This document shows positions 13,932 to 62,449 of a stretch of DNA of 64,000 nt, one piece after another. The stretch comes from a virus. The translations under genes and the position numbers were made by a program. The notes under the pieces were generated by a model. It did not search any database and had not been told where the DNA came from. It was given only the letters and a program-made list of their open reading frames with translations. Position 1 is the stretch's first letter, and each line of letters opens with the position of its first letter. The stretch spans positions 1 through 64,000 of IMG/VR virus record IMGVR_UViG_3300028559_002342; one strand, given 5' to 3'.

Positions 13932-15121
13932 TACCGTTTAAACAATTTCTATTGGAAGGTGGTGCAGCAGGTCACATGGCACATCCTTTTGATTTGCCTA
14001 ATGTGAATTCAGGTAAAGATCTCATCAACACCTTCAATAAAATTGTCAAAAGTTTGCAGAAAAAGCCTTCAGTAGTAAAAATTGATGGTGCCAATGCTGC
14101 CATAAAATTGATTGCAAATGCAGAAGGTAAGAAAGAGTTTGCCATGGACAGAGGATCCAATAAACCAGAAGATGTTGAAGGTGTTACAGTGGCAAGATTG
14201 GGCACACGCTTTCCAGAGGGTCATGGAATGAGAGACATAGGTTCAACTGTGTTGGGCATTTTTAACTCAGCCATCCCTGCCATAGAAGCAGATTTGAAGA
14301 AGCTCAAGATGTGGGATAACAATAAAATCCTCTTCAACATGGAGTATGTGCAAGGGGCAACAAATGTCATAGGTTATGCAAACAACTTTCTGGCCATTCA
14401 TGGTTTGAATGAAATTGTGCAGGTGAGAAGTCCAGTTCGCGGCAGTGTGAGCAGAGCATCGCGAGAGATACCTTATGATAAAAAGACATTGCAAAATTTA
14501 ATTGCCAAAGTGGATCCCATAGCCAAGAAGAAAGGATTTGATGTGGCACATGAATTTGTTGTGAAGCTGGGCAAACCAGATTTGAATAAACCTCTGAATG
14601 AGCCTTTTTCTGTTAGCTACGATTCCAAGAACATAGTAACAAAGCCTTTGAGAGAGTGGCTGGGTGCAGTTAAGAATCCCAAAGCTGAGAAGATTAAGCT
14701 TGCATCAGGAAAAACTATCAGTGCCATGAGCATGGAAAACTATAAAAACGTCACTGGCAGTGTTCCCATGCATGTATACATTGGTGCAAACAAGAAGGAC
14801 ATTGACAAGGCAATTTCAGGTGCTGTCATGTATCATGCCACACTTGTGTTGGGACAGGCCATCAAAGATGCTGCTTCATCTGATTTGGGTACTCTTTCCA
14901 CACAAGAAGGCATTGTGATAAGAGATGCAGCAATATCTTCCAATCCAGTCAAGGTCACTGGTAATTTTATCTTGGGCAAAGAACAGGGTAAGTTTGCACA
15001 AGCAAAAAAAGCAGAAAATGAAGAGCAACAAAGACAATTGTCCAATAATAACTACATGATGAACCCAGAGTATGGCAAAGAAGGTGCTCGTTTGACGCAC
15101 ACACCAGGAATGGCTTTATGA
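13928..15121 (+). CDS. Nucleic-acid ligase-like nucleotidyltransferase (DUF6267-type), CTS-like N-terminus
   Basis: A 397-residue protein with the landmarks of covalent nucleotidyltransferases (RNA/DNA ligase or capping fold). KIDGANAAIK at about residues 51-60 gives the K-x-D-G lysine motif, NMEYVQG (near 138-144) fits the motif III region, and EGIVIRD (near 329-335) fits motif IV. It is probably an RNA or DNA ligase relative. In marine T4-like phages such proteins are usually labelled DUF6267, from memory. Residues 1-10 (MIPFKQFLLE) before GG look like a gp21 cleavage site, so the protein may be packaged. It overlaps both neighbours by 4 bp, coupling it to the nucleotidyltransferase at 15118. 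Confidence 0.75.
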   Translation: MIPFKQFLLEGGAAGHMAHPFDLPNVNSGKDLINTFNKIVKSLQKKPSVVKIDGANAAIKLIANAEGKKEFAMDRGSNKPEDVEGVTVARLGTRFPEGHGMRDIGSTVLGIFNSAIPAIEADLKKLKMWDNNKILFNMEYVQGATNVIGYANNFLAIHGLNEIVQVRSPVRGSVSRASREIPYDKKTLQNLIAKVDPIAKKKGFDVAHEFVVKLGKPDLNKPLNEPFSVSYDSKNIVTKPLREWLGAVKNPKAEKIKLASGKTISAMSMENYKNVTGSVPMHVYIGANKKDIDKAISGAVMYHATLVLGQAIKDAASSDLGTLSTQEGIVIRDAAISSNPVKVTGNFILGKEQGKFAQAKKAENEEQQRQLSNNNYMMNPEYGKEGARLTHTPGMAL

Positions 15122-15768
15122 AATTTGATCAACTGGTAAATGAAATACTAACCCATCAGAAAAATAATTTAATAGTTATTTTTCCAGGACGCTTTCAACC
15201 ATTCCACATGGGCCATAAAAAGCTTTATGACATGGCCAAGAGTCAGTTTCCAGGAGCAGATTTTTTTATTGCTACAACAGATGAAGTGGCCAAAAACGAA
15301 GATGCTTCCAGATATCCTTTCAACTTCAATGAAAAGAAAGAAATAATAAAAGCCGCAGGCATACCTGACAATGTGGTAAAACAGGTGAAGCAGCCTTACA
15401 AACCTTTGGAGATTCTGAAAAACTATGATCCTAATGTTACCAAGGTGATCTATCTTGTGGGCAAAAAGGACATGCAATCAGATGCAAGATTCACTTTTGG
15501 CATGACAAAAAAAGGCACTCCCAGTTACTTTCAGCCATTCAAAGATCTTCAATCCATGCAACCATTCAAAGAACAAGGTGGCCATGGGTACATTTATGCA
15601 CCAAGTACCATACAGTTCAACATAGGTGATAAGAGCATCACCAGTGCCACTGAATTAAGAGACATATACAAGGCTTCTAATGAAGCTACAAGAAAGCAAA
15701 TAATTGCAGCTGTTCTGGGCAAATTTAATGCCACAGTTTTCAAGTTGTTCAATACTAAGTTAAGCTAA
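15118..15768 (+). CDS. NMNAT-like cytidylyltransferase-fold nucleotidyltransferase
   Basis: A 216-residue HIGH-superfamily nucleotidyltransferase. It has FPGRFQPFHMGHKKL near residues 22-36 (the GRFxPxHxGH signature) and the late SITSATELRDIY near 180-191, equivalent to the ISxTxxR motif. NMN, nicotinate-nucleotide or phosphopantetheine adenylyltransferases share this layout, so the substrate is not certain. Residues 1-9 (MKFDQLVNE) resemble a capsid-targeting peptide. The ATG overlaps the stop of the ligase-like gene (ATGA), implying a functional pair. Convergent with, and overlapping by 9 bp, the gene at 15760. Confidence 0.8.
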   Translation: MKFDQLVNEILTHQKNNLIVIFPGRFQPFHMGHKKLYDMAKSQFPGADFFIATTDEVAKNEDASRYPFNFNEKKEIIKAAGIPDNVVKQVKQPYKPLEILKNYDPNVTKVIYLVGKKDMQSDARFTFGMTKKGTPSYFQPFKDLQSMQPFKEQGGHGYIYAPSTIQFNIGDKSITSATELRDIYKASNEATRKQIIAAVLGKFNATVFKLFNTKLS

Positions 15769-18691: not shown

Positions 18692-18710
18692 AAAACTAAG
18701 ATTAGTTTTT
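18692..18710. terminator. Possible bidirectional terminator
   Basis: AAAACT, a 6-nt loop, AGTTTT and a T-run lie at the junction of two converging genes (an appendage gene and folE). The stem is short and A/T-only, so it is weak. Confidence 0.35.
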
Positions 18711-19349
18711 AATCTGCGCAAACTCCACAAACTTGTAAAACTCAGCTCGGGAATTGTCATTGTTATCCAAGAACGCACCAGACATTCTGGCTGTGCGCAT
18801 GGTGGAATCATGTCGGATGCCACGGTTGGAACAACATGTGTGATTGGCTTCAATCATGACTGCCACACCATTGTTCTTCTCACATACCAAATCAATGTGT
18901 GCATGAATTTGCATGGTGAGATTTTCTTGCACTTGTGGTCGACGGGCAAACCAATCCACCACACGATTGAGCTTGCTCAATCCAATGACTTTGCCTTCTT
19001 TGGAAGGAATATACGCCACATGGGCCACACCAGTGAAAGGTGCATGATGATGTGAACACAGTGAGGTCAATTTGATGTTGTTCTGACACACCATGCCATC
19101 ATATTGGTCAATGTTATCAAAGGCTGTGATCTTGGGTGGCTTGCTGTAGCAGCCCCATGCAAAGTCTTCTACAAAGGCCTTGGCCACGCGATGTGGGGTG
19201 TTGTCACTGTTGGGATCATTTCTCCAATCATACCCTAGTGCATCCATGTACATTTCATAAGCCTTGGATGCTCTTTGAATGATTTGATCTCTTTCTTCTT
19301 GTGTGTGAGGGTGATTGTGATTGGCAAAAGCAAGCTTTACATTGGACAT
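18702..19349 (-). CDS. folE: GTP cyclohydrolase I, FolE
   Basis: FolE converts GTP to 7,8-dihydroneopterin triphosphate, the first step of the 7-deazaguanine (queuosine/preQ0) and folate pathways. The 215 residues include the zinc-site region LCSHHHAPFTGVAHVAY near 105-121, IGLSKLNRVVDWFARR, and the second Cys region TCCSNRGIRHDS near 167-178. All expected catalytic segments are seen. Together with queD, queE, queF and dpdA in this window it supports phage-encoded synthesis of a modified guanine. A sigma70-like promoter sits 7 nt upstream, so it is probably expressed early. Confidence 0.93.
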   Translation of the reverse strand: MSNVKLAFANHNHPHTQEERDQIIQRASKAYEMYMDALGYDWRNDPNSDNTPHRVAKAFVEDFAWGCYSKPPKITAFDNIDQYDGMVCQNNIKLTSLCSHHHAPFTGVAHVAYIPSKEGKVIGLSKLNRVVDWFARRPQVQENLTMQIHAHIDLVCEKNNGVAVMIEANHTCCSNRGIRHDSTMRTARMSGAFLDNNDNSRAEFYKFVEFAQIKN

Positions 19350-23167: not shown

Positions 23168-23845
23168 ATGAAATATAGTAGTGCTAAGATCATTGAGTTG
23201 GGTAGTTGCGCATTTAGACAATGGAGGGCTGATAGTCATTGCAGATATATTCATGGATACAGATTGGTGGCTAAATTTTGGTTCAATTGCAATAATTTAG
23301 ATGCAAACAATTGGGTAGTAGATTTTGGTGGATTGAAAGAGTTGAAAGAAATATTAGAGAAGCAATTTGATCATACATTGTGTGTTGCAAGTGATGACCC
23401 TTTGTTAGAAGGCTTGCAATCATTGCATACAGCAGGTGGTTGTGATTTGAGAGTAATGCCAGATGGTGTGGGCATTGAGAAGACTGCAGAATGGTGTTTG
23501 AAGGCAGCAGATGCATTCATAAGACAACAGACAGGCAACCGTTGCTGGGTGGAGAAGGTGGAAGTGTGGGAACATGAGAAGAATTCAGCATTGATTACAA
23601 ATGAAATGGTGCAACCCATTGCTAGTGCTTATTCAATTGCAGAGCAAACTGTGCCCATAAGGCATGTTGAAAATTTCCTGGAAGAAGTGCACAAGGAAAC
23701 AGGTGTGAACGTTGCAGCTGTTCTGAAGCAAGCACCCATGGGTAGCAAACAACCACAACCTGCTGCTTTGAAGCCAGCAAATGTGGGCAGAAATGTGACC
23801 ACTGGTTATGGTAATTTGTTTGGTGGCACTTCATGGGGAAATTGA
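23168..23845 (+). CDS. queD: QueD-like 6-carboxytetrahydropterin synthase
   Basis: PTPS-family enzyme that would convert dihydroneopterin triphosphate to 6-carboxytetrahydropterin in preQ0 synthesis. Residues 13-29 include FRQWRADSHCRYIHGYR, where the usual HGH zinc motif reads HGY and the first His of FxAAH is missing, so the zinc site is altered. WVVDFGGLKELKEIL and QFDHTL are well conserved, as is the later VEKVEVWEHEKNSA. The C-terminal 60 residues form a Pro/Gly-rich tail not found in short QueD enzymes (about 120 aa). It is 225 residues long. A TGA is followed directly by an in-frame ORF. Confidence 0.85.
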   Translation: MKYSSAKIIELGSCAFRQWRADSHCRYIHGYRLVAKFWFNCNNLDANNWVVDFGGLKELKEILEKQFDHTLCVASDDPLLEGLQSLHTAGGCDLRVMPDGVGIEKTAEWCLKAADAFIRQQTGNRCWVEKVEVWEHEKNSALITNEMVQPIASAYSIAEQTVPIRHVENFLEEVHKETGVNVAAVLKQAPMGSKQPQPAALKPANVGRNVTTGYGNLFGGTSWGN

Positions 23846-24833: not shown

Positions 24834-25571
24834 TTGAGCGATAAGACTATATTTCTAAGTGATGACAAAATATTCTATACTTTAGAAGGTGAAGGTGAGT
24901 ATGTTGGGTGTCCTTCTGTGTTCATGCGCCTTTCCATGTGCAACTTGACATGCAAAGGGTTTGCATCTGCTGACTCTCCCAACGGTTGTGATAGTTTTAT
25001 TAGCTGGTCAGTTAAAAACAGAATGACGTTTGATGAAATTTTTGAATACATGTCCAGCAACAGGTACAACTGTTATCTCAAAGATGGTGCCATATGGAAG
25101 ATCACTGGTGGTGAACCTTTGATTCAACAGAATGCTTTACTTGAGCTTGTTGATCAATATATTTTCAGGTTTGGTTATGTGCCCAAGATTGATTTTGAAA
25201 CCAACGCGACCATTATGCCAGATCAGCAATGGCTTGATTGGAAGGCAACATTTACAACATCACCAAAATTGAGCAACAATGGTGATCCAGTTGAGAAGAG
25301 ATACAAGCCGGTGGTGTTAAAATGGCACGCAAAGAATCGATCAGGGTTCAAGTTTGTTGTGAATAGTGAGACGGAAGTGAGAGAAATATTGGAAAAATAT
25401 GTTTATGAATGTGGGGTACCTATGGATCGTATTTGGCTCATGCCTTGTTGTGGCAGCAGGGATGAACATACCGAAAATTGTCCTATTGTGGCAGAGTTTT
25501 GCAAAAAATATAACTTTAAATTTAGTCCAAGATTGCAGCTGGTGATCTGGAACAAAGCCTTGAAGGTTTGA
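24834..25571 (+). CDS. queE: QueE-like 7-carboxy-7-deazaguanine synthase (radical SAM)
   Basis: Radical SAM enzyme that forms CDG from carboxytetrahydropterin. The 245 residues open with FYTLEGEGEYVGCPSVFMR; the cluster region reads MCNLTCKGFASADSPNGCD, so the three cysteines are C-x3-C-x11-C instead of the usual C-x3-C-x2-C. A longer spacing is known in some QueE clades, from memory. ITGGEPL near residue 98 is the conserved SAM-binding GGEP motif, and FETNAT follows. The start is TTG. It lies between phoH and a kinase, with a weak TTGAAA / TATAAT pair upstream (14-nt spacer). Confidence 0.88.
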   Translation: MSDKTIFLSDDKIFYTLEGEGEYVGCPSVFMRLSMCNLTCKGFASADSPNGCDSFISWSVKNRMTFDEIFEYMSSNRYNCYLKDGAIWKITGGEPLIQQNALLELVDQYIFRFGYVPKIDFETNATIMPDQQWLDWKATFTTSPKLSNNGDPVEKRYKPVVLKWHAKNRSGFKFVVNSETEVREILEKYVYECGVPMDRIWLMPCCGSRDEHTENCPIVAEFCKKYNFKFSPRLQLVIWNKALKV

Positions 25572-25600: not shown

Positions 25601-26341
25601 ATGAGAATTGCTATTTCAGGCAGCGCGTGTCAGGGTAAATCAACATTGGTAGACGATTTTATTAAAAATTGGCCTGCCTATAAGCGGTCAAATGAGTCAT
25701 ATCGTGCTCTTATCAAAGAACAACACATTAATATTAACAAAAAAGTAGACAAAGACGGGCAGTGGAAAATTTTAAATTGCTTGATAGATGACTTGCAACA
25801 AACAAGCAAAAGTGATAATATTATTCTTGACAGGTGTCCGCTAGACAATATTGTGTATTCTCTTTGGGCTGAAGAGAAGCAGACTTCAGATATTGACAGA
25901 GATTTTATTAAAAAATGCATTCCCTTGGTGCAGGAAAGCATGAAAGCAGTGGACATAATCTTCTTCCTGCCAATTACAAAAGTTGCACCCATAATAGTGG
26001 AAGAAAAGTCCAACAGAGAGATTGATAAGCATTTTATTGAAGAAATTGATCATATTTTTAAAGCCATATCGCATGCTCTTGCAGCAAAAGGTGCATGCCC
26101 ATTCATGGCTTCTGATGACAGGCCACCTGTCATTGAAGTCTTTGGTTCACCTGAAGAGCGCATTGAAATTATAAAATTGTATCTGGATCAAAATGGTGAA
26201 TTGATACATGAATCCTCCAGTATACTAGATTCGGAAAACCTTAGCAACATGGAAACCATATTGAGAGCACAGAACAAAGCTTTAAAAGAAGAGAAATACG
26301 AGCAGAAAATAAAAAATAAGATAATAACTGGCAATAAATAA
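25601..26341 (+). CDS. P-loop kinase of the NadR-like AAA family
   Basis: A 246-residue P-loop protein: Walker A GSACQGKSTLVD near residues 7-18, and ILDRCPLDNIVYSLW near 78-92, the DR-x-x-x-D region of NadR ribosylnicotinamide kinases and related nucleoside kinases. The substrate is unknown; nicotinamide riboside or a deoxynucleotide are the main options. The C-terminal 50 residues form a charged helix. It is 30 bp after queE and 7 bp before a small late gene. A second, shorter protein of the same type lies at 47557. Confidence 0.7.
   Translation: MRIAISGSACQGKSTLVDDFIKNWPAYKRSNESYRALIKEQHININKKVDKDGQWKILNCLIDDLQQTSKSDNIILDRCPLDNIVYSLWAEEKQTSDIDRDFIKKCIPLVQESMKAVDIIFFLPITKVAPIIVEEKSNREIDKHFIEEIDHIFKAISHALAAKGACPFMASDDRPPVIEVFGSPEERIEIIKLYLDQNGELIHESSSILDSENLSNMETILRAQNKALKEEKYEQKIKNKIITGNK
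26334..26340 (+). promoter_or_regulatory. Late promoter box ATAAATA
   Basis: The box overlaps the stop codon of the kinase gene and stands 7 nt before the ATG at 26348, giving a predicted 2-nt leader. Confidence 0.55.
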
Positions 26342-46655: not shown

Positions 46656-47576
46656 TTACTGACGAACTGTTTTGGTAAAGTACTTGTACTTGTCCCACAT
46701 GGCACTATTTTGTGCCAGCAGCTCCTGACTACTGGCACGGATAGGATTGATGTCAATACCGCCACGACGCACATACATGCATGCCACCATCAACTCTTCT
46801 GGCTTGGTCAAATCATGCAACCGCTTGTATATGGTTTCACATATTTCTTCATGAAAATGGCATTCATCACGGAATGAAACTATGTATTGCAACAAAGAGG
46901 TTTGATTGAGTTCACATGGTCCTTTATAATGAATGTAAACATCACCCCAATCTGGTTGGGATGTGACCCTGCAATTGCTCTTTAACAGGGCTGAATGAAA
47001 TCGTTGCACCTTGTTTGTGTCACTGTGCATCCATCCAAGTAATGCAGGATCTTCTTTATAGCCTCTGGATTTGATGGACGTCACATCAATGTTATTCTCC
47101 AGTGTAGGATATGCAGCACTTGGAAACAAGGGTGGATAGTGCATTGCATCATCAACAGCTTTGGTAAGGCGTACATAGACCTGCACATCAGTTTCTAATA
47201 GAGTGGATAGATCCTTGGCAATCACCTGTTCCAGTTGCTGCAAAGCACTCACTATGTTGCCACTGTATTTCTCCATGTTGAAAGAATTCATGTACAGCTT
47301 GATGGATTTGGACTCCACAATGTATTTGTTGGTTGCAGGATACACAATCTTGGCAATGGCAGCAATGGGCATGCCGTCAGTTGTCAAACAAGACACTTCA
47401 TAAGCATTCCAAATGTCATACCCCACAAAGGGTGGTGCATCATCAGATATGTGCAGATGCTTGCGATTGTTGGCTCTGGGTTCACGCACCAACAGAGAAG
47501 GATCATAGGTGCACTTGTAGCCTGTTATTTTACCCAAATGTTTTGATATGTTACTGTTATCTAATTCCGTATTCAT
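46656..47576 (-). CDS. queF: QueF, NADPH-dependent preQ0 reductase (long form)
   Basis: Reduces preQ0 (nitrile) to preQ1 (aminomethyl) with NADPH. The 306 residues are of the E. coli long type (282): the QueF motif ESKSIKLYMNSFN at 88-100, the catalytic Cys202 in LLKSNCRVTSQPDWG, and VSFRDECHFHEEICE with a late YVRRGGIDINPIR. All essential parts are intact. It is the last gene of the dpdA operon, overlapping the kinase gene by 20 bp. Its presence implies that preQ1-type bases can be made, although no QueC is found in the window. Confidence 0.95.
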   Translation of the reverse strand: MNTELDNSNISKHLGKITGYKCTYDPSLLVREPRANNRKHLHISDDAPPFVGYDIWNAYEVSCLTTDGMPIAAIAKIVYPATNKYIVESKSIKLYMNSFNMEKYSGNIVSALQQLEQVIAKDLSTLLETDVQVYVRLTKAVDDAMHYPPLFPSAAYPTLENNIDVTSIKSRGYKEDPALLGWMHSDTNKVQRFHSALLKSNCRVTSQPDWGDVYIHYKGPCELNQTSLLQYIVSFRDECHFHEEICETIYKRLHDLTKPEELMVACMYVRRGGIDINPIRASSQELLAQNSAMWDKYKYFTKTVRQ

Positions 47577-48135
47577 TAAGTTTTATTTTAATTGCTTGCA
47601 TGCGTTCTTCCACTGTTCCTTTTAAAATAGTTATTTTTCCTTTTAACCGCTCATCCTTAAGCCAGCAATTTTCATATGAATCAATAATTGCATCCCTGAA
47701 TTCTTTATTTGTACTTCTCTCACCATCATCCTCCAGAGGCACATCATGAGGACTTGGATAAAAGATATGATCATATCTGTGAATATGATTCACATAGTAC
47801 ATGAGACCCAGACTATTTGATACAGGAAAATCTTTTGGCTTATTATAAGCAAAGTAACTCGTATAGATCATGCCATCCATCAGGCAGCGATCATGCAGTG
47901 TACCCTCGAACTTGCTCAACTTGTAATTGAACATCAAATTCTCAAATTCTTTATTCAATATTAGAGTTTGAGTCACATCATTTGCTCCTGACTCATTCAT
48001 ATCAACCCCATACTCGCGGCTAATCAATCTTGTGACTTCATCCACATACCATAACTTGGAACCATAGAACAGTTTGCACTCCTTGAGCAGAGTAGTCTTG
48101 CCTGAACACTGAGGACCTGTGAAAGTGAATATCAT
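47557..48135 (-). CDS. NadR-like P-loop kinase
   Basis: A 192-residue P-loop protein: Walker A GPQCSGKTTLLKE near residues 7-19, LHDRCLMDGMIYTSYF near 80-95, and the family signature HDVPLEDDGERSTNKEFRDA near 129-148 (D-x-P-x-x-x-D-G-x-R). This is typical of the NadR C-terminal (AAA_28) ribosylnicotinamide-kinase domain, and of deoxynucleotide kinases annotated in T4-like phages. The substrate is not certain. It is within the 7-deazaguanine operon, overlapping queF and the small gene at 48132. Confidence 0.75.
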   Translation of the reverse strand: MIFTFTGPQCSGKTTLLKECKLFYGSKLWYVDEVTRLISREYGVDMNESGANDVTQTLILNKEFENLMFNYKLSKFEGTLHDRCLMDGMIYTSYFAYNKPKDFPVSNSLGLMYYVNHIHRYDHIFYPSPHDVPLEDDGERSTNKEFRDAIIDSYENCWLKDERLKGKITILKGTVEERMQAIKIKLNEYGIR

Positions 48136-48302
48136 TTGCGTCGCAACAAGGAAGTATACTCTATCTCCAGGTCATACACAAGCTTTTTAAACATTTTTAT
48201 TTCTTCCTTAAGAATTTTGTTCTCTTGCATGATCATGTCATAATCTTTCTCTAGCTGTTTCACCTTGCCATTCCATGCCCGCCATGCATTCATTAATGAC
48301 AT
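48132..48302 (-). CDS. Small coiled-coil protein, 56 aa
   Basis: A short ORF that reads MSLMNAWRAWNGKVKQLEKD and continues as a charged helix (IMQENKILKEEIKMFKKL) ending LLRRK. It has a heptad-like pattern and could form a coiled coil. The stop overlaps the ATG of the kinase gene (ATGA), and the start is 4 bp from the stop of the membrane-protein gene at 48307, so it is a plausible gene of the operon. It has no known function. Confidence 0.6.
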   Translation of the reverse strand: MSLMNAWRAWNGKVKQLEKDYDMIMQENKILKEEIKMFKKLVYDLEIEYTSLLRRK

Positions 48303-48306
48303 ACAG

Positions 48307-48504
48307 TTATTTCATAATGCCAAACACTTTAAGTGCAATGAGCATGGATAACCAGAAGCCGGTGAATGATGACAAGGTGCGCAACAGTTCCATCTTATGA
48401 TTATGAAAATCGAGCAACACTTCAAAATCGCTTCTTAATTTGTTCTGTTTCATTAATTTACGCAATTGTTTTTTTGGAAGCTTGTTAATGTTAATAAGAT
48501 TCAT
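48307..48504 (-). CDS. Small single-pass membrane protein
   Basis: A 65-residue protein with a basic N-terminal half (LPKKQLRKLMKQNKLRSDF) and a hydrophobic C-terminal helix of about 18 residues (TGFWLSMLIALKVFGIMK). It looks like a tail-anchored inner-membrane protein. Its start follows the Nmad1-like gene stop with no gap. The function is unknown; membrane tethering of an operon product is one idea. Confidence 0.6.
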   Translation of the reverse strand: MNLININKLPKKQLRKLMKQNKLRSDFEVLLDFHNHKMELLRTLSSFTGFWLSMLIALKVFGIMK

Positions 48505-48852
48505 TCATTTGCCCCATTTGCCATTATACACTATTTCTGCAATAATGCCATACACTGCAGAATCTCTGAATGCATCCATGACTGGCTCATTGGCAGAGTT
48601 CATGTCTTTTTTCTTCAAGACCAAATTGATCAATCGCTGTATCTTGTCATTGAGTCGCACCACAACTGCAGATATGGCAGCAAATATGTCCTCTTGTTTG
48701 ACTAAATCTGAACCCAGAGAAATATTTCCTGGACCGTAATCAAATTGCTTTCTGCAAAACGTTTCATATAGCTCTGCCTGTATCTTGTGAAACTCTTTAC
48801 ACGTTTCCGGGAAATTTTTTTCCACGTACTTGATGGCATCATCCTTATTCAC
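48505..48852 (-). CDS. DUF1599 / Nmad1 nucleotide-modification-associated protein
   Basis: A 115-residue helical protein of the DUF1599 (Nucleotide modification associated domain 1) type. FCRKQFDYGPGNISLGSDLV near residues 32-51 and RLNDKIQRLINLVLK near 71-85 match the family, then DAFRDSAVYGIIAEIVYNGK at the end. The fold is MazG-like from memory, and predicted roles involve modified nucleotides. The position between GMP reductase and a small membrane protein, in the dpdA operon, supports a link to base modification. It overlaps guaC by 4 bp. Confidence 0.75.
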   Translation of the reverse strand: MNKDDAIKYVEKNFPETCKEFHKIQAELYETFCRKQFDYGPGNISLGSDLVKQEDIFAAISAVVVRLNDKIQRLINLVLKKKDMNSANEPVMDAFRDSAVYGIIAEIVYNGKWGK

Positions 48853-49820
48853 AATCGTACTCCATGAGATACTTTATTTAAATTTAAAGCACCCAGATTG
48901 CAACCACCTGCATAACTAATAGCGCTCTGCAAGTCTTGCCTTATCTCTTCCATTTTTTCAAGATATGTGAAGGCATCCGTGTCCATGAGCTTCATTGTAC
49001 CTTCAATATTCTTTTTTTCAATCTTATTGTGTGCACTGGCTGATCCAAAGTACTGTTTGTAGCGTCTGCCATTTGCATCCTTTACAAGCGGTGCCGGGCT
49101 GTCTGAACATGCAGCAAATATGGAACCGCACATCACCATGCTGGCACCTGCCACAAGAGCTTTGGCAATATCACCATTGCAGCGCACACCGCCATCTGCA
49201 ATGATGGGTATGTCTCTATCCCTGGCGCACTCTATGATGCAACTAAACATGGGGTATGTAAACCCTGTCTTATCTTTGGTTGTGCAGGCATACCCACCAC
49301 CAACGCCCACCTTCACTGCATCTGCACCTGCACTGTGCAAGTATTCAACACCTGTGAAAGTAGCAACATTACCAGCAATAATTTTTGTATCTGGTAGGCT
49401 CTGCTTGATGTGTTTGATCTGATCAGCAACCTTGGAGTGATGACCATGAGCCACATCTATGGTGATAAAATCAACACGAAGATGCCGATTAGCCAATTCA
49501 GTAATGATGGTAGCATCCTTGGATTGTGTGCCAACACTAATAGAGATGGTCTTGAGATCACCCATCCAGGCTCTGTTGTTGGCATCTTCAACAAACTTAA
49601 CGATATCAACATTAAACCGATGCATGATGTAAAAATAATTGTCCTGATCCAGCATTTTGCAAATATCAAAATCAATGCAGCACTTCATGTTGGCTGGTAC
49701 CACAGGTAGCTTGAACCGCTTGCCACAAAGCATCACATCTGTATCAATTTCAGCTCTGGATTGAATGGAATTAAAATTCGGTTTGAGAAAAATATTCCCA
49801 TAGTGTAGAGATATGTCCAT
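48849..49820 (-). CDS. guaC: GMP reductase (GuaC)
   Basis: NADPH-dependent enzyme converting GMP to IMP. The 323 residues match short bacterial GMP reductases: GKRFKLPVVPANMKCCIDFD near residues 33-52, YFYIMHRF, ITIDVAHGHH, IIAGNVATF, and the catalytic loop VKVGVGGGYACTTK with Cys near residue 175, then FGSASAHNKIEKKNIEG near 256-272. The ATG at 49820 is chosen because it directly follows the formyltransferase stop; a longer frame to 49904 would overlap that gene. In this operon it may help handle guanine nucleotides from base exchange. Confidence 0.9.
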   Translation of the reverse strand: MDISLHYGNIFLKPNFNSIQSRAEIDTDVMLCGKRFKLPVVPANMKCCIDFDICKMLDQDNYFYIMHRFNVDIVKFVEDANNRAWMGDLKTISISVGTQSKDATIITELANRHLRVDFITIDVAHGHHSKVADQIKHIKQSLPDTKIIAGNVATFTGVEYLHSAGADAVKVGVGGGYACTTKDKTGFTYPMFSCIIECARDRDIPIIADGGVRCNGDIAKALVAGASMVMCGSIFAACSDSPAPLVKDANGRRYKQYFGSASAHNKIEKKNIEGTMKLMDTDAFTYLEKMEEIRQDLQSAISYAGGCNLGALNLNKVSHGVRL

Positions 49821-49821
49821 G

Positions 49822-50394
49822 TTACTGTTCAAGAATTCTAAACGCAGTAAAGAAACTCTTCCAAAGATCCAGTGCAGTGACACGCAGGGCACCATACACC
49901 TCACTTAACGTCTTATTTTTTATATCTATGCCTTGACTCATTAGTATTTCTCCTTCATCCACCCCTGGTGTGACTCTGTGAATAACACAACCAGCCACAT
50001 CATATCCCTCTGTAAAAGCTCTCTGTTGTGGATTGAACCCCTTCAATGAGGGAAATTTATCAATGAGCCCTGGATGTAAATTATAGATTTCATATTTTTC
50101 ACATATTTGTTTAGGAATAATTCTCAGATAGCCATGCAGTGTTACAATCGGATTATTATACCTGGATAAAACATTCTCATAATTTACCACACTTGGTTTG
50201 GGTGGCAAATGCTGCCAGCAATGCATCATGTTGAGCTTGGTTGCCCTGAAAGTGGTCAACTCAACAAGCTTCTGATTAACGCCATCATTGTCGTGTTTGT
50301 TGTGCACAACACAATCAGGATAGACACCAAGTGCATTACTGAGATCATATATCTCAGTGCCCGTTTGCGAGAAAAATGTTACCCAAGGTCTCAT
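49822..50394 (-). CDS. dpdN: PurN-like formyltransferase (candidate DpdN)
   Basis: A 190-residue formyltransferase-fold protein. The catalytic triad is visible at positions like those of PurN: N105 and H107 in YNLHPGLIDKFPSLKG, and D146 in TPGVDEGEIL, with H139 in GCVIHRV. LHGYLRIIP near residue 86 is also typical. A PurN role is possible, but the ATGA overlap with dpdA makes it a good candidate for DpdN, a dPreQ1 formyltransferase predicted from work on phage 7-deazaguanines (from memory). The formyl donor would be N10-formyl-THF. Function is inferred from fold and position. Confidence 0.8.
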   Translation of the reverse strand: MRPWVTFFSQTGTEIYDLSNALGVYPDCVVHNKHDNDGVNQKLVELTTFRATKLNMMHCWQHLPPKPSVVNYENVLSRYNNPIVTLHGYLRIIPKQICEKYEIYNLHPGLIDKFPSLKGFNPQQRAFTEGYDVAGCVIHRVTPGVDEGEILMSQGIDIKNKTLSEVYGALRVTALDLWKSFFTAFRILEQ

Positions 50395-51197
50395 CTGCGA
50401 ATAATCTTCTTAAACATTGTAGTATTATATTTTACAAGATCAAGTTGATCATCAGTGAAGATATGTTCAATCAAGTCGGCTAGCTTTGTTGCAGGCTTGC
50501 TCTGCAAGCCATAATCTGCATCATATTTTAACCCATTGATGGCTGCAACAATGGGGTTGCTGGTATCACAACTTACAATGTTGTAGATATTTTTATCCAC
50601 ATAAAATCTAAATTCTTTAGCTAGAGAGCATCCCAGCAGGTGATGTGGTTTGTTCCATTCCCAAATTCCTGACTCAATTAAATCTGTAATAAATCTTTGT
50701 CTACCAGAACAAAACCGCTCCAGTTCTGTATTGCCCTCTCCAATGGCTTGATAGTAACTAAAGTCAAAGCTTATTGCAATCATGTCAGCTTCATATGACA
50801 TGAAACGATAGCAATTCTTTAATTCCTGCCAACATTTGCCTTGCACTGCACCTATGGATTTTGTTAAAAAAGAGCTTTGCAGGTCTTTGGCTTTGTCTCT
50901 GAACCCCAGGTAGCTGACCATAGTCTCTTGTGAGTTCTCCAGAACATCTGGTATGATGAACATGTTGGGCTGCAGATCTTTAGCAGCTTCATAAAACATC
51001 TGTGGGTCAAAGGACTTGCCAAGTTCAAATATTGAGTTGTCGAGTAGCACTTCTCTGTTGTATACATGTCTGGCAGACTTGAAGTAATTGTAATAATCTG
51101 GATAACGTTCAAATAGATGCACTAATGCATAGTCAAAATCATTGTATGACTTGGATGCAGGTAATATGGATAAGGGAGATTCGTGGGATACTTTCAT
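50391..51197 (-). CDS. dpdA: DpdA-like DNA guanine transglycosylase
   Basis: A 268-residue TGT-like protein of the phage DpdA type, which exchanges guanine in DNA for a 7-deazaguanine. LLDNSIFELG (residues 51-60) stands at the place of the DSGGFQ motif of TGT, IIPDVLENS at 81-89, and HHLLGCS at 185-191. SCDTSNP at 209-215 supplies a candidate nucleophile Asp211. It is shorter than tRNA TGT (about 375), as expected for a phage DpdA subfamily. It heads the operon dpdA, formyltransferase, guaC, Nmad1, two small genes, kinase, queF. Subfamily assignment needs a tree. Confidence 0.85.
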   Translation of the reverse strand: MKVSHESPLSILPASKSYNDFDYALVHLFERYPDYYNYFKSARHVYNREVLLDNSIFELGKSFDPQMFYEAAKDLQPNMFIIPDVLENSQETMVSYLGFRDKAKDLQSSFLTKSIGAVQGKCWQELKNCYRFMSYEADMIAISFDFSYYQAIGEGNTELERFCSGRQRFITDLIESGIWEWNKPHHLLGCSLAKEFRFYVDKNIYNIVSCDTSNPIVAAINGLKYDADYGLQSKPATKLADLIEHIFTDDQLDLVKYNTTMFKKIIRR

Positions 51198-51208
51198 AGC
51201 ATAATTAT

Positions 51209-51237
51209 ATTATACTTGTAAATAATACATATATCAA
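51209..51237 (-). promoter_or_regulatory. sigma70-like promoter for the dpdA operon
   Basis: Minus-strand TTGATA (51232-51237), a 17-nt spacer and TATAAT (51209-51214). A second overlapping TATAAT ends exactly 6 nt before the ATG. The region is shared with the divergent late promoter of the gp5-like gene. Confidence 0.65.
51218..51224 (+). promoter_or_regulatory. Late promoter box GTAAATA for the gp5-like gene
   Basis: GTAAATA followed by 14 nt and the ATG at 51239, so a leader of about 9 nt is predicted. It overlaps the spacer of the divergent dpdA promoter, so early and late transcription could exclude each other. Confidence 0.5.
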
Positions 51238-61978: not shown

Positions 61979-62437
61979 TTATTTATCCAGTTTAACTGAT
62001 TCCCAGGGAAAGTCAAGCCAGATGTTATCATCAAAACGTTTTATGTAAAAATTTGGAACATAACTTGTGGACTCTTTTATGTACAATGTGGCAAATTTGT
62101 AATGTGTAAATTGTTGCAATTCAAAGAAACTATTTAGCTCCATTATAGTTTTGCCTTTATCGGACAAGTCATCAATTATAATGACTCTTTTGTCACGGTA
62201 TTTTGTGACAAATTTAATGCCCAGTGTTTGATCAAACGCTATCTCTCCTGGCACATTGTCATCTGTGTAGCTTCTTATGCCAAAATTATATATGGGCACA
62301 TTTAATATGTGTGAAATGATCACACTGGGCACCAGTCCACCTCGACCTGCAGAAACAATGACATCACAGGAATCTATTTTATCTGCCAACAATTTGCAAT
62401 CCCGGGTGATGTCTTGCCAGGCCAATGTGGTTCGCAT
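61979..62437 (-). CDS. gpt: Xanthine/guanine phosphoribosyltransferase-like (Gpt)
   Basis: A 152-residue PRTase of the bacterial Gpt type, converting guanine or xanthine to the nucleotide with PRPP. VIVSAGRGGLVPSVIISHIL near residues 27-46, the PRPP loop RVIIIDDLSDKGKT near 88-101, and NIWLDFPWE near the end match the pattern of E. coli Gpt. The ATG at 62437 is chosen over a TTG one codon upstream. Together with guaC and dpdA it suggests recycling of guanine released from DNA. The downstream gene is the 3D-domain protein. Confidence 0.8.
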   Translation of the reverse strand: MRTTLAWQDITRDCKLLADKIDSCDVIVSAGRGGLVPSVIISHILNVPIYNFGIRSYTDDNVPGEIAFDQTLGIKFVTKYRDKRVIIIDDLSDKGKTIMELNSFFELQQFTHYKFATLYIKESTSYVPNFYIKRFDDNIWLDFPWESVKLDK

Positions 62438-62449
62438 CAAACGATTGTA

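Follow-up and report, generated by a model that had tools for sequence, protein, structure and literature searches.

A viral operon for a DpdA3-type transglycosylase, a putative preQ1 formyltransferase and QueF, and a proposed purine arm that would recycle displaced guanine

The window analysed here is the whole 64,000-base stretch formed by bases 1-64000 of the linear 66,674-base IMG/VR virus record IMGVR_UViG_3300028559_002342. The record is a genome fragment, and the phage collection held no near DNA relative of the window. Eight open reading frames (ORFs) on its minus strand, running from 51197 to 46656, form the operon described in this paper, and the genes probably serve to swap guanine in the virus's own DNA for a modified base. 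On balance we lean towards reading them as the late half of phage 7-deazaguanine DNA modification of the DpdA3 type, in which formyl-preQ1 takes the place of G, together with a purine arm recycling the displaced guanine. The modification would be of a known kind, and the proposed recycling arm has not been described before. The following features have been assigned to the operon.

51209..51237, minus strand: promoter-like element TTGATA-N17-TATAAT, directly before the dpdA start; kept in most related loci
50391..51197, minus strand: dpdA, predicted DpdA3-type short DNA-guanine transglycosylase, 268 amino acids (aa), assigned by fold and homology
49822..50394, minus strand: PurN-like formyltransferase (FT, DpdN-like), 190 aa (PF00551, E=8e-17)
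48849..49820, minus strand: GMP reductase (GuaC type 2), 323 aa (PF00478, E=2e-55; PRK05458, 3e-101)
48505..48852, minus strand: DUF1599/Nmad1-like protein, 115 aa, all-alpha (PF07659 in family members)
48307..48504, minus strand: small ORF, 65 aa; present in 3/84 loci, not conserved
48132..48302, minus strand: small ORF, 56 aa (p56); present in 11/84 loci, not conserved
47557..48135, minus strand: P-loop nucleotide/nucleoside kinase (AAA_28; TMPK/NadR/dNK fold), core member (PF13521, E=3e-12)
46656..47576, minus strand: queF, long-type nitrile reductase for preQ0 to preQ1 (TIGR03138, E=3e-78)

The gene order agrees with the original prediction, as do the overlaps of up to 20 bp between neighbours: 4 bp for dpdA/FT (ATGA, 50391-50394), guaC/DUF1599 (48849-48852) and p56/kinase, and 20 bp for kinase/queF. 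The start of guaC is probably at 49820, one nucleotide beyond the FT stop, since this is where the gene begins in relatives; the start at 49904 in the ORF list is probably too long.

No Pfam or NCBIfam model matched the DpdA protein above cut-off. Its structural model (pLDDT 93) has a TIM-barrel fold like that of tRNA-guanine transglycosylase (TGT), and all 50 matches listed by Foldseek against the PDB were TGTs (best E 1e-8, TM 0.60-0.69 by query). The protein is 43% identical to a protein annotated as DpdA in Flavobacterium phage immuto and 44% identical to firehammervirus homologues, over 91-95% of the length. Its phage relatives are found in 14 Campylobacter firehammervirus records, four immuto records and, distantly, Chryseobacterium phage MA9V-3. 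The residues D53, D84, Q119-G120, H185-H186-LLG (LLG188-189) and D211 are invariant or nearly so, and in a profile comparison with E. coli TGT the QG and LLG positions fall plausibly, the match itself being weak (probability 1%). Judged by sequence, DpdA belongs with the short DpdA of immuto and the firehammerviruses, which reportedly replace guanine completely. Hypothetical proteins of Brevundimonas phage MaInes (L215:658-1458, E 2e-8) and Cellulophaga phage phiST (gp042, L221:12548-13327, E 2e-37) are more distant DpdA3 relatives. Gene families that recur just upstream of dpdA in relatives were considered as dGTPases and rejected, as they do not look like one when judged by sequence.

Gene neighbourhoods were collected by a profile scan of IMG/VR, in which 80 loci were taken from at least 568 relatives, and co-occurrence was counted in the 70 loci where 3.5 kb or more of sequence follows dpdA. 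Beside dpdA there are the kinase (69 loci), queF (67), FT (55), DUF1599 (48) and guaC (25). The gene sets are nested: every locus with guaC has DUF1599, every one with DUF1599 has FT, every one with FT has queF, and every one with queF has the kinase.

The FT keeps the catalytic residues N105, H107 and D146, whose conservation across 61 relatives is 95% or more, and is 44-50% identical to the immuto FT. Identification as PurN itself (GAR transformylase) was rejected: the score was 57 bits against a cut-off of 150, and similarity is limited to the C-terminal part (residues 76-163), the N-terminal half of PurN not being kept. QueF matches PF14819 and PF14489 above cut-off and TIGR03138 with 263 bits, under the strict cut-off of 293, and has residues C202, D209 and H242-E243 and the ESKSIK motif. 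The FT was never seen without QueF (queF is present in 55/55 FT loci with enough sequence), which is what one would expect of an FT that formylates preQ1 and so needs the amine made by QueF. Fold, motifs and this strict co-occurrence thus support what had been claimed from the letters, namely that DpdA inserts the base, that QueF would make preQ1 and that the FT may act on preQ1.

The AAA_28 kinase is the most constant partner of dpdA. It had been called NadR-like; the fold stands, and the NAD role does not. Ribosylnicotinamide kinase identity was dropped, as there is no NCBIfam NadR match and the context is dpdA and queF, with no NAD context. In the phage collection, relatives at E 1e-5 were found only in firehammerviruses, and independent lineages with an AAA_28 kinase include CP220, immuto, L102, L103, L104 and L115 (L numbers are our labels for records). 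A paralogue adjoins the queE-like gene of the window, and CP220 and each of the 11 long relatives likewise have a second paralogue. In other DpdA3 lineages dpdA is immediately preceded by a different P-loop kinase: phiST and MA9V-3 have AAA_18, and CP220 has, besides its AAA_28 kinase, an HD-AAA_33 protein (gp055, L001:13868-14899), in which an HD domain and an AAA_33 kinase domain are fused. In Brevundimonas phage MaInes a T4-type dNMP kinase adjoins folE. The kinase profile was absent from phages 9g, Dp-1 and HVTV-1 and gave one faint match in nt-1. Replacement of G is partial where measured, amounting to 1.7% of Gs in Dp-1, about 0.1% in nt-1 and about 30% in HVTV-1 (PMC6884629).

Outside the operon, the window contains the following genes of the proposed pathway.

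61979..62440, minus strand: xanthine-guanine phosphoribosyltransferase (XGPRT-like), proposed guanine salvage (PF00156, E=1e-13)
18702..19349, minus strand: folE, GTP cyclohydrolase I (PF01227, E=6e-48)
23168..23845, plus strand: queD, PTPS family (PF01242, E=4e-16)
24834..25571, plus strand: queE-like radical SAM protein (QueE models up to 6e-10)
25601..26341, plus strand: second AAA_28 kinase, a paralogue of the operon kinase

The best PDB matches of the XGPRT-like protein are purine and xanthine-guanine phosphoribosyltransferases (PRTases; 3e-19 for a purine PRTase), and PRK09177 matches with E=6e-18 (65 bits against a cut-off of 138). The DD motif for phosphoribosyl pyrophosphate binding (IIDDLSDKGKT) and the C-terminal base pocket W-x2-FPWE, as WLDFPWE, are present. 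A PF00156 PRTase occurs in 11/11 long relatives and in immuto and was absent from four phages without this DpdA (9g, Dp-1, nt-1 and HVTV-1); that of CP220 was missed by PF00156 and found by tblastn. Relatives of the XGPRT are few among 50,697 phage records, being found in the firehammerviruses, the Cellulophaga phiST group, immuto and two Brevundimonas phages, and each of these groups has a DpdA3-like gene (annotated as hypothetical in Brevundimonas). Further matches are Synechococcus phage BUCT-ZZ01, where the order is queE-XGPRT-x-queD-folE and DpdA3 was not found, and four unannotated contigs, two of them faecal and two tiny. The faecal phage contig L217 (MT835497.1) has XGPRT and no DpdA3 or QueD was found in it, which is an unexplained exception to the association.

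In IMG/VR, queD, queE, queC or dpdA lies within 10 kb in 62/80 XGPRT loci (folE in 55/80) and in 0/80 control RNR-beta loci; 62/80 is an upper estimate, because the seed proteins of the scan came from 7-deazaguanine phages and of 510 loci just the best 80 were retained. In a DpdA clade without QueF, HPRT stands beside folE at the place corresponding to XGPRT. It lies between queE and folE (L131:8944-9456, L123:11506-12024), and queC is close to dpdA there. That PRTases of two types and kinases of several types have been recruited around DpdA speaks for function and against coincidence. Pyrophosphohydrolases of the all-alpha kind (MazG or PRA-PH) also occur near folE or dpdA in phiST, immuto, L103, L131 and L112; positions of such genes are L131:10472-10966, L103:7143-7802, L002:14279-14803 and L112:3141-3467.

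GMP reductase is well matched, with 339 bits for PRK05458 against a cut-off of 344, a PDB match to GMP reductase 1ypf at 1e-77, and the active-site Cys loop CTT. For the DUF1599 protein, PF07659 was matched in 15/24 aligned family members (E up to 10, best E 0.0023) and not in the window protein itself. A fold search of its model (pLDDT 87) against the PDB gave no match below E=1, which leaves a MazG-like fold unproven. The earlier proposal that GuaC, DUF1599 and the kinase are accessory parts is supported by the neighbourhoods and extended: the kinase is a core member, and the distant XGPRT gene belongs to the set as well.

For preQ0 supply, folE, queD and queE had been placed elsewhere in the window and all three were located, queE as a queE-like gene. 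QueC is absent from this 66.7 kb fragment, as had been noted, and this absence says little because the record is a fragment. Provision of preQ0 by the host, one of the two sources then suggested, was dropped once QueC turned up in 14/17 long records of this DpdA type; the three without it are contigs of 85-98 kb.

From these identities and associations we infer, as follows, what the enzymes act on, how far guanine is replaced and which way the purine arm runs. FolE, QueD, QueE and an unseen QueC would make preQ0, which QueF would reduce to preQ1. DpdA would exchange guanine for preQ1 along replicated phage DNA, and the PurN-like enzyme would then formylate the aminomethyl group with 10-formyltetrahydrofolate, giving formyl-preQ1 DNA. 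One guanine would be freed per exchange, which for the 64 kb of the window comes to about 24,000. Freed guanine would be converted to GMP by XGPRT and GMP to IMP by GMP reductase; the kinase may also turn GMP into GDP, returning GTP to FolE, and DUF1599 may act on a purine nucleotide.

Several points weigh against this scheme. Most of the 70 loci come from related phages, many sharing flanking capsid and baseplate genes, and are not independent events; the XGPRT fraction is biased upwards and its control is a single gene. No PRTase was found in MA9V-3 or the L112 clade, and no AAA_28 kinase in the DpdA clade without QueF (L116-L134). Complete guanine replacement in this phage is suggested solely by analogy. 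Moreover, a recycling arm by itself leaves the dedicated kinase and the MazG or PRA-PH genes beside dpdA unexplained, and these would suit exchange in the nucleotide pool, a minority reading to which we give appreciable weight. MazG, PRA-PH or DUF1599 would convert dGTP to dGMP, DpdA3 would put preQ1 in place of the base of dGMP, the kinase encoded next to it would form the diphosphate, DNA polymerase would insert the product, and XGPRT and GuaC would dispose of guanine. This accounts for every gene and for complete replacement, and it agrees with P-loop kinases adjoining DpdA in lineages with different kinase families and with the pyrophosphohydrolases in the five lineages above. A modified dGTP route was left open for Campylobacter phages by Hutinet 2019 (PMC6884629). 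We prefer exchange in DNA because TGT-fold enzymes studied so far work on polynucleotides and plasmid DNA was modified when 9g DpdA was expressed with Gat-QueC (PMC6884629). Furthermore, large phages commonly carry dNMP kinases and MazG anyway. Crippen and co-workers reportedly saw no dADG nucleotides in infected cells in 2019, and Cui and co-workers are said to have argued for post-replication insertion in 2023. Net charge of DpdA3 (median -8) was dropped as a discriminator of DNA- and nucleotide-level action, as E. coli TGT is acidic too.

It is also conceivable, and in our view unlikely, that the kinase, GuaC, DUF1599 and XGPRT are ordinary nucleotide metabolism of a large phage lying near modification genes by chance. 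Many large phages carry such genes, guaC is in just 25/70 loci, and its relatives occur in Bacillus phage G and others. However, the near-constant adjacency of kinase and dpdA, the restriction of operon-kinase relatives in the phage collection (E 1e-5) to firehammerviruses, the difference between XGPRT and control loci, and the nesting of guaC within FT and DUF1599 loci all count against chance. A route through inosine, in which GuaC would convert dGMP to dIMP and DpdA3 would later replace hypoxanthine in DNA first built with inosine, seems very improbable to us: guaC and the kinase do share the operon with DpdA, and fletcherviruses have deoxyinosine DNA (PMC8713573), but guaC is absent from most relatives, immuto and CP220. 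Slightly less credible still is that the genes raise queuosine in host tRNA, with DpdA acting on tRNA. DpdA has the TGT fold, and FolE, QueD, QueE and QueF are queuosine enzymes, whereas the proteins with which DpdA groups come from immuto and the firehammerviruses, phages that have modified DNA or annotations for it, no QueA or QueG was seen, and the FT has no known role in queuosine synthesis.

The operon had also been predicted to start from one sigma70-like promoter, and such an element is in place, matching the consensus at 11/12 positions and lying 11 bp 5' of the dpdA ATG. Counted by eye, about 18-20 of 27 related loci have a recognisable element at this position. In many of the 27 it lies about 6 nucleotides ahead of a conserved ATG that is two codons 5' of the tblastn start, which makes a nearly leaderless dpdA transcript probable. 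Shine-Dalgarno sequences precede 5/49 gene starts in the window, compared with 7% by chance; this scarcity suggests a host not using them, e.g. one of the Bacteroidota. A cytidylyltransferase-like protein (PF01467) with an NMNAT-like N-terminus is encoded at 15118-15768.

The tie of DpdA3 to a nucleotide kinase and guanine salvage names concrete proteins bearing on how a phage replaces every guanine. XGPRT or HPRT beside FolE provides a sequence marker for finding such phages, and guanine disposal is predicted to be a burden for phages with high-level replacement.

The window genes resemble those of Cui and co-workers, who in 2023 reportedly defined DpdA3 as a complete-replacement transglycosylase subfamily and proposed DpdN as the dPreQ1 formyltransferase; to our knowledge, they described neither a kinase nor XGPRT, GMP reductase or DUF1599 as a partner. 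Flavobacterium phage vB_FspM_immuto (Immutovirus) has the same four genes in the same order, dpdA-FT-kinase-queF, with 41-50% identity to the window for dpdA, FT and queF and 27% for the kinase, and it also has XGPRT, there adjoining folE. It differs in that guaC was not found, its DNA polymerase is of family A, and a PRA-PH pyrophosphohydrolase adjoins dpdA, whereas the window has its DUF1599 gene further down the operon.

The Campylobacter firehammerviruses (CP220 group), in which the reported base is dADG, resemble this phage type in having a kinase of the same family after dpdA and in encoding another kinase, QueD, QueE, QueC and XGPRT. Guanine is replaced by a deazaguanine in these phages (PMC8713573). 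They differ from the window in having no QueF beside dpdA, no FT and no guaC. The 2-aminoadenine and T4 hydroxymethylcytosine pathways likewise replace a base completely and have nucleotide kinases and dNTP pyrophosphatases as partners, but they act on nucleotides and involve neither a transglycosylase nor a displaced base.

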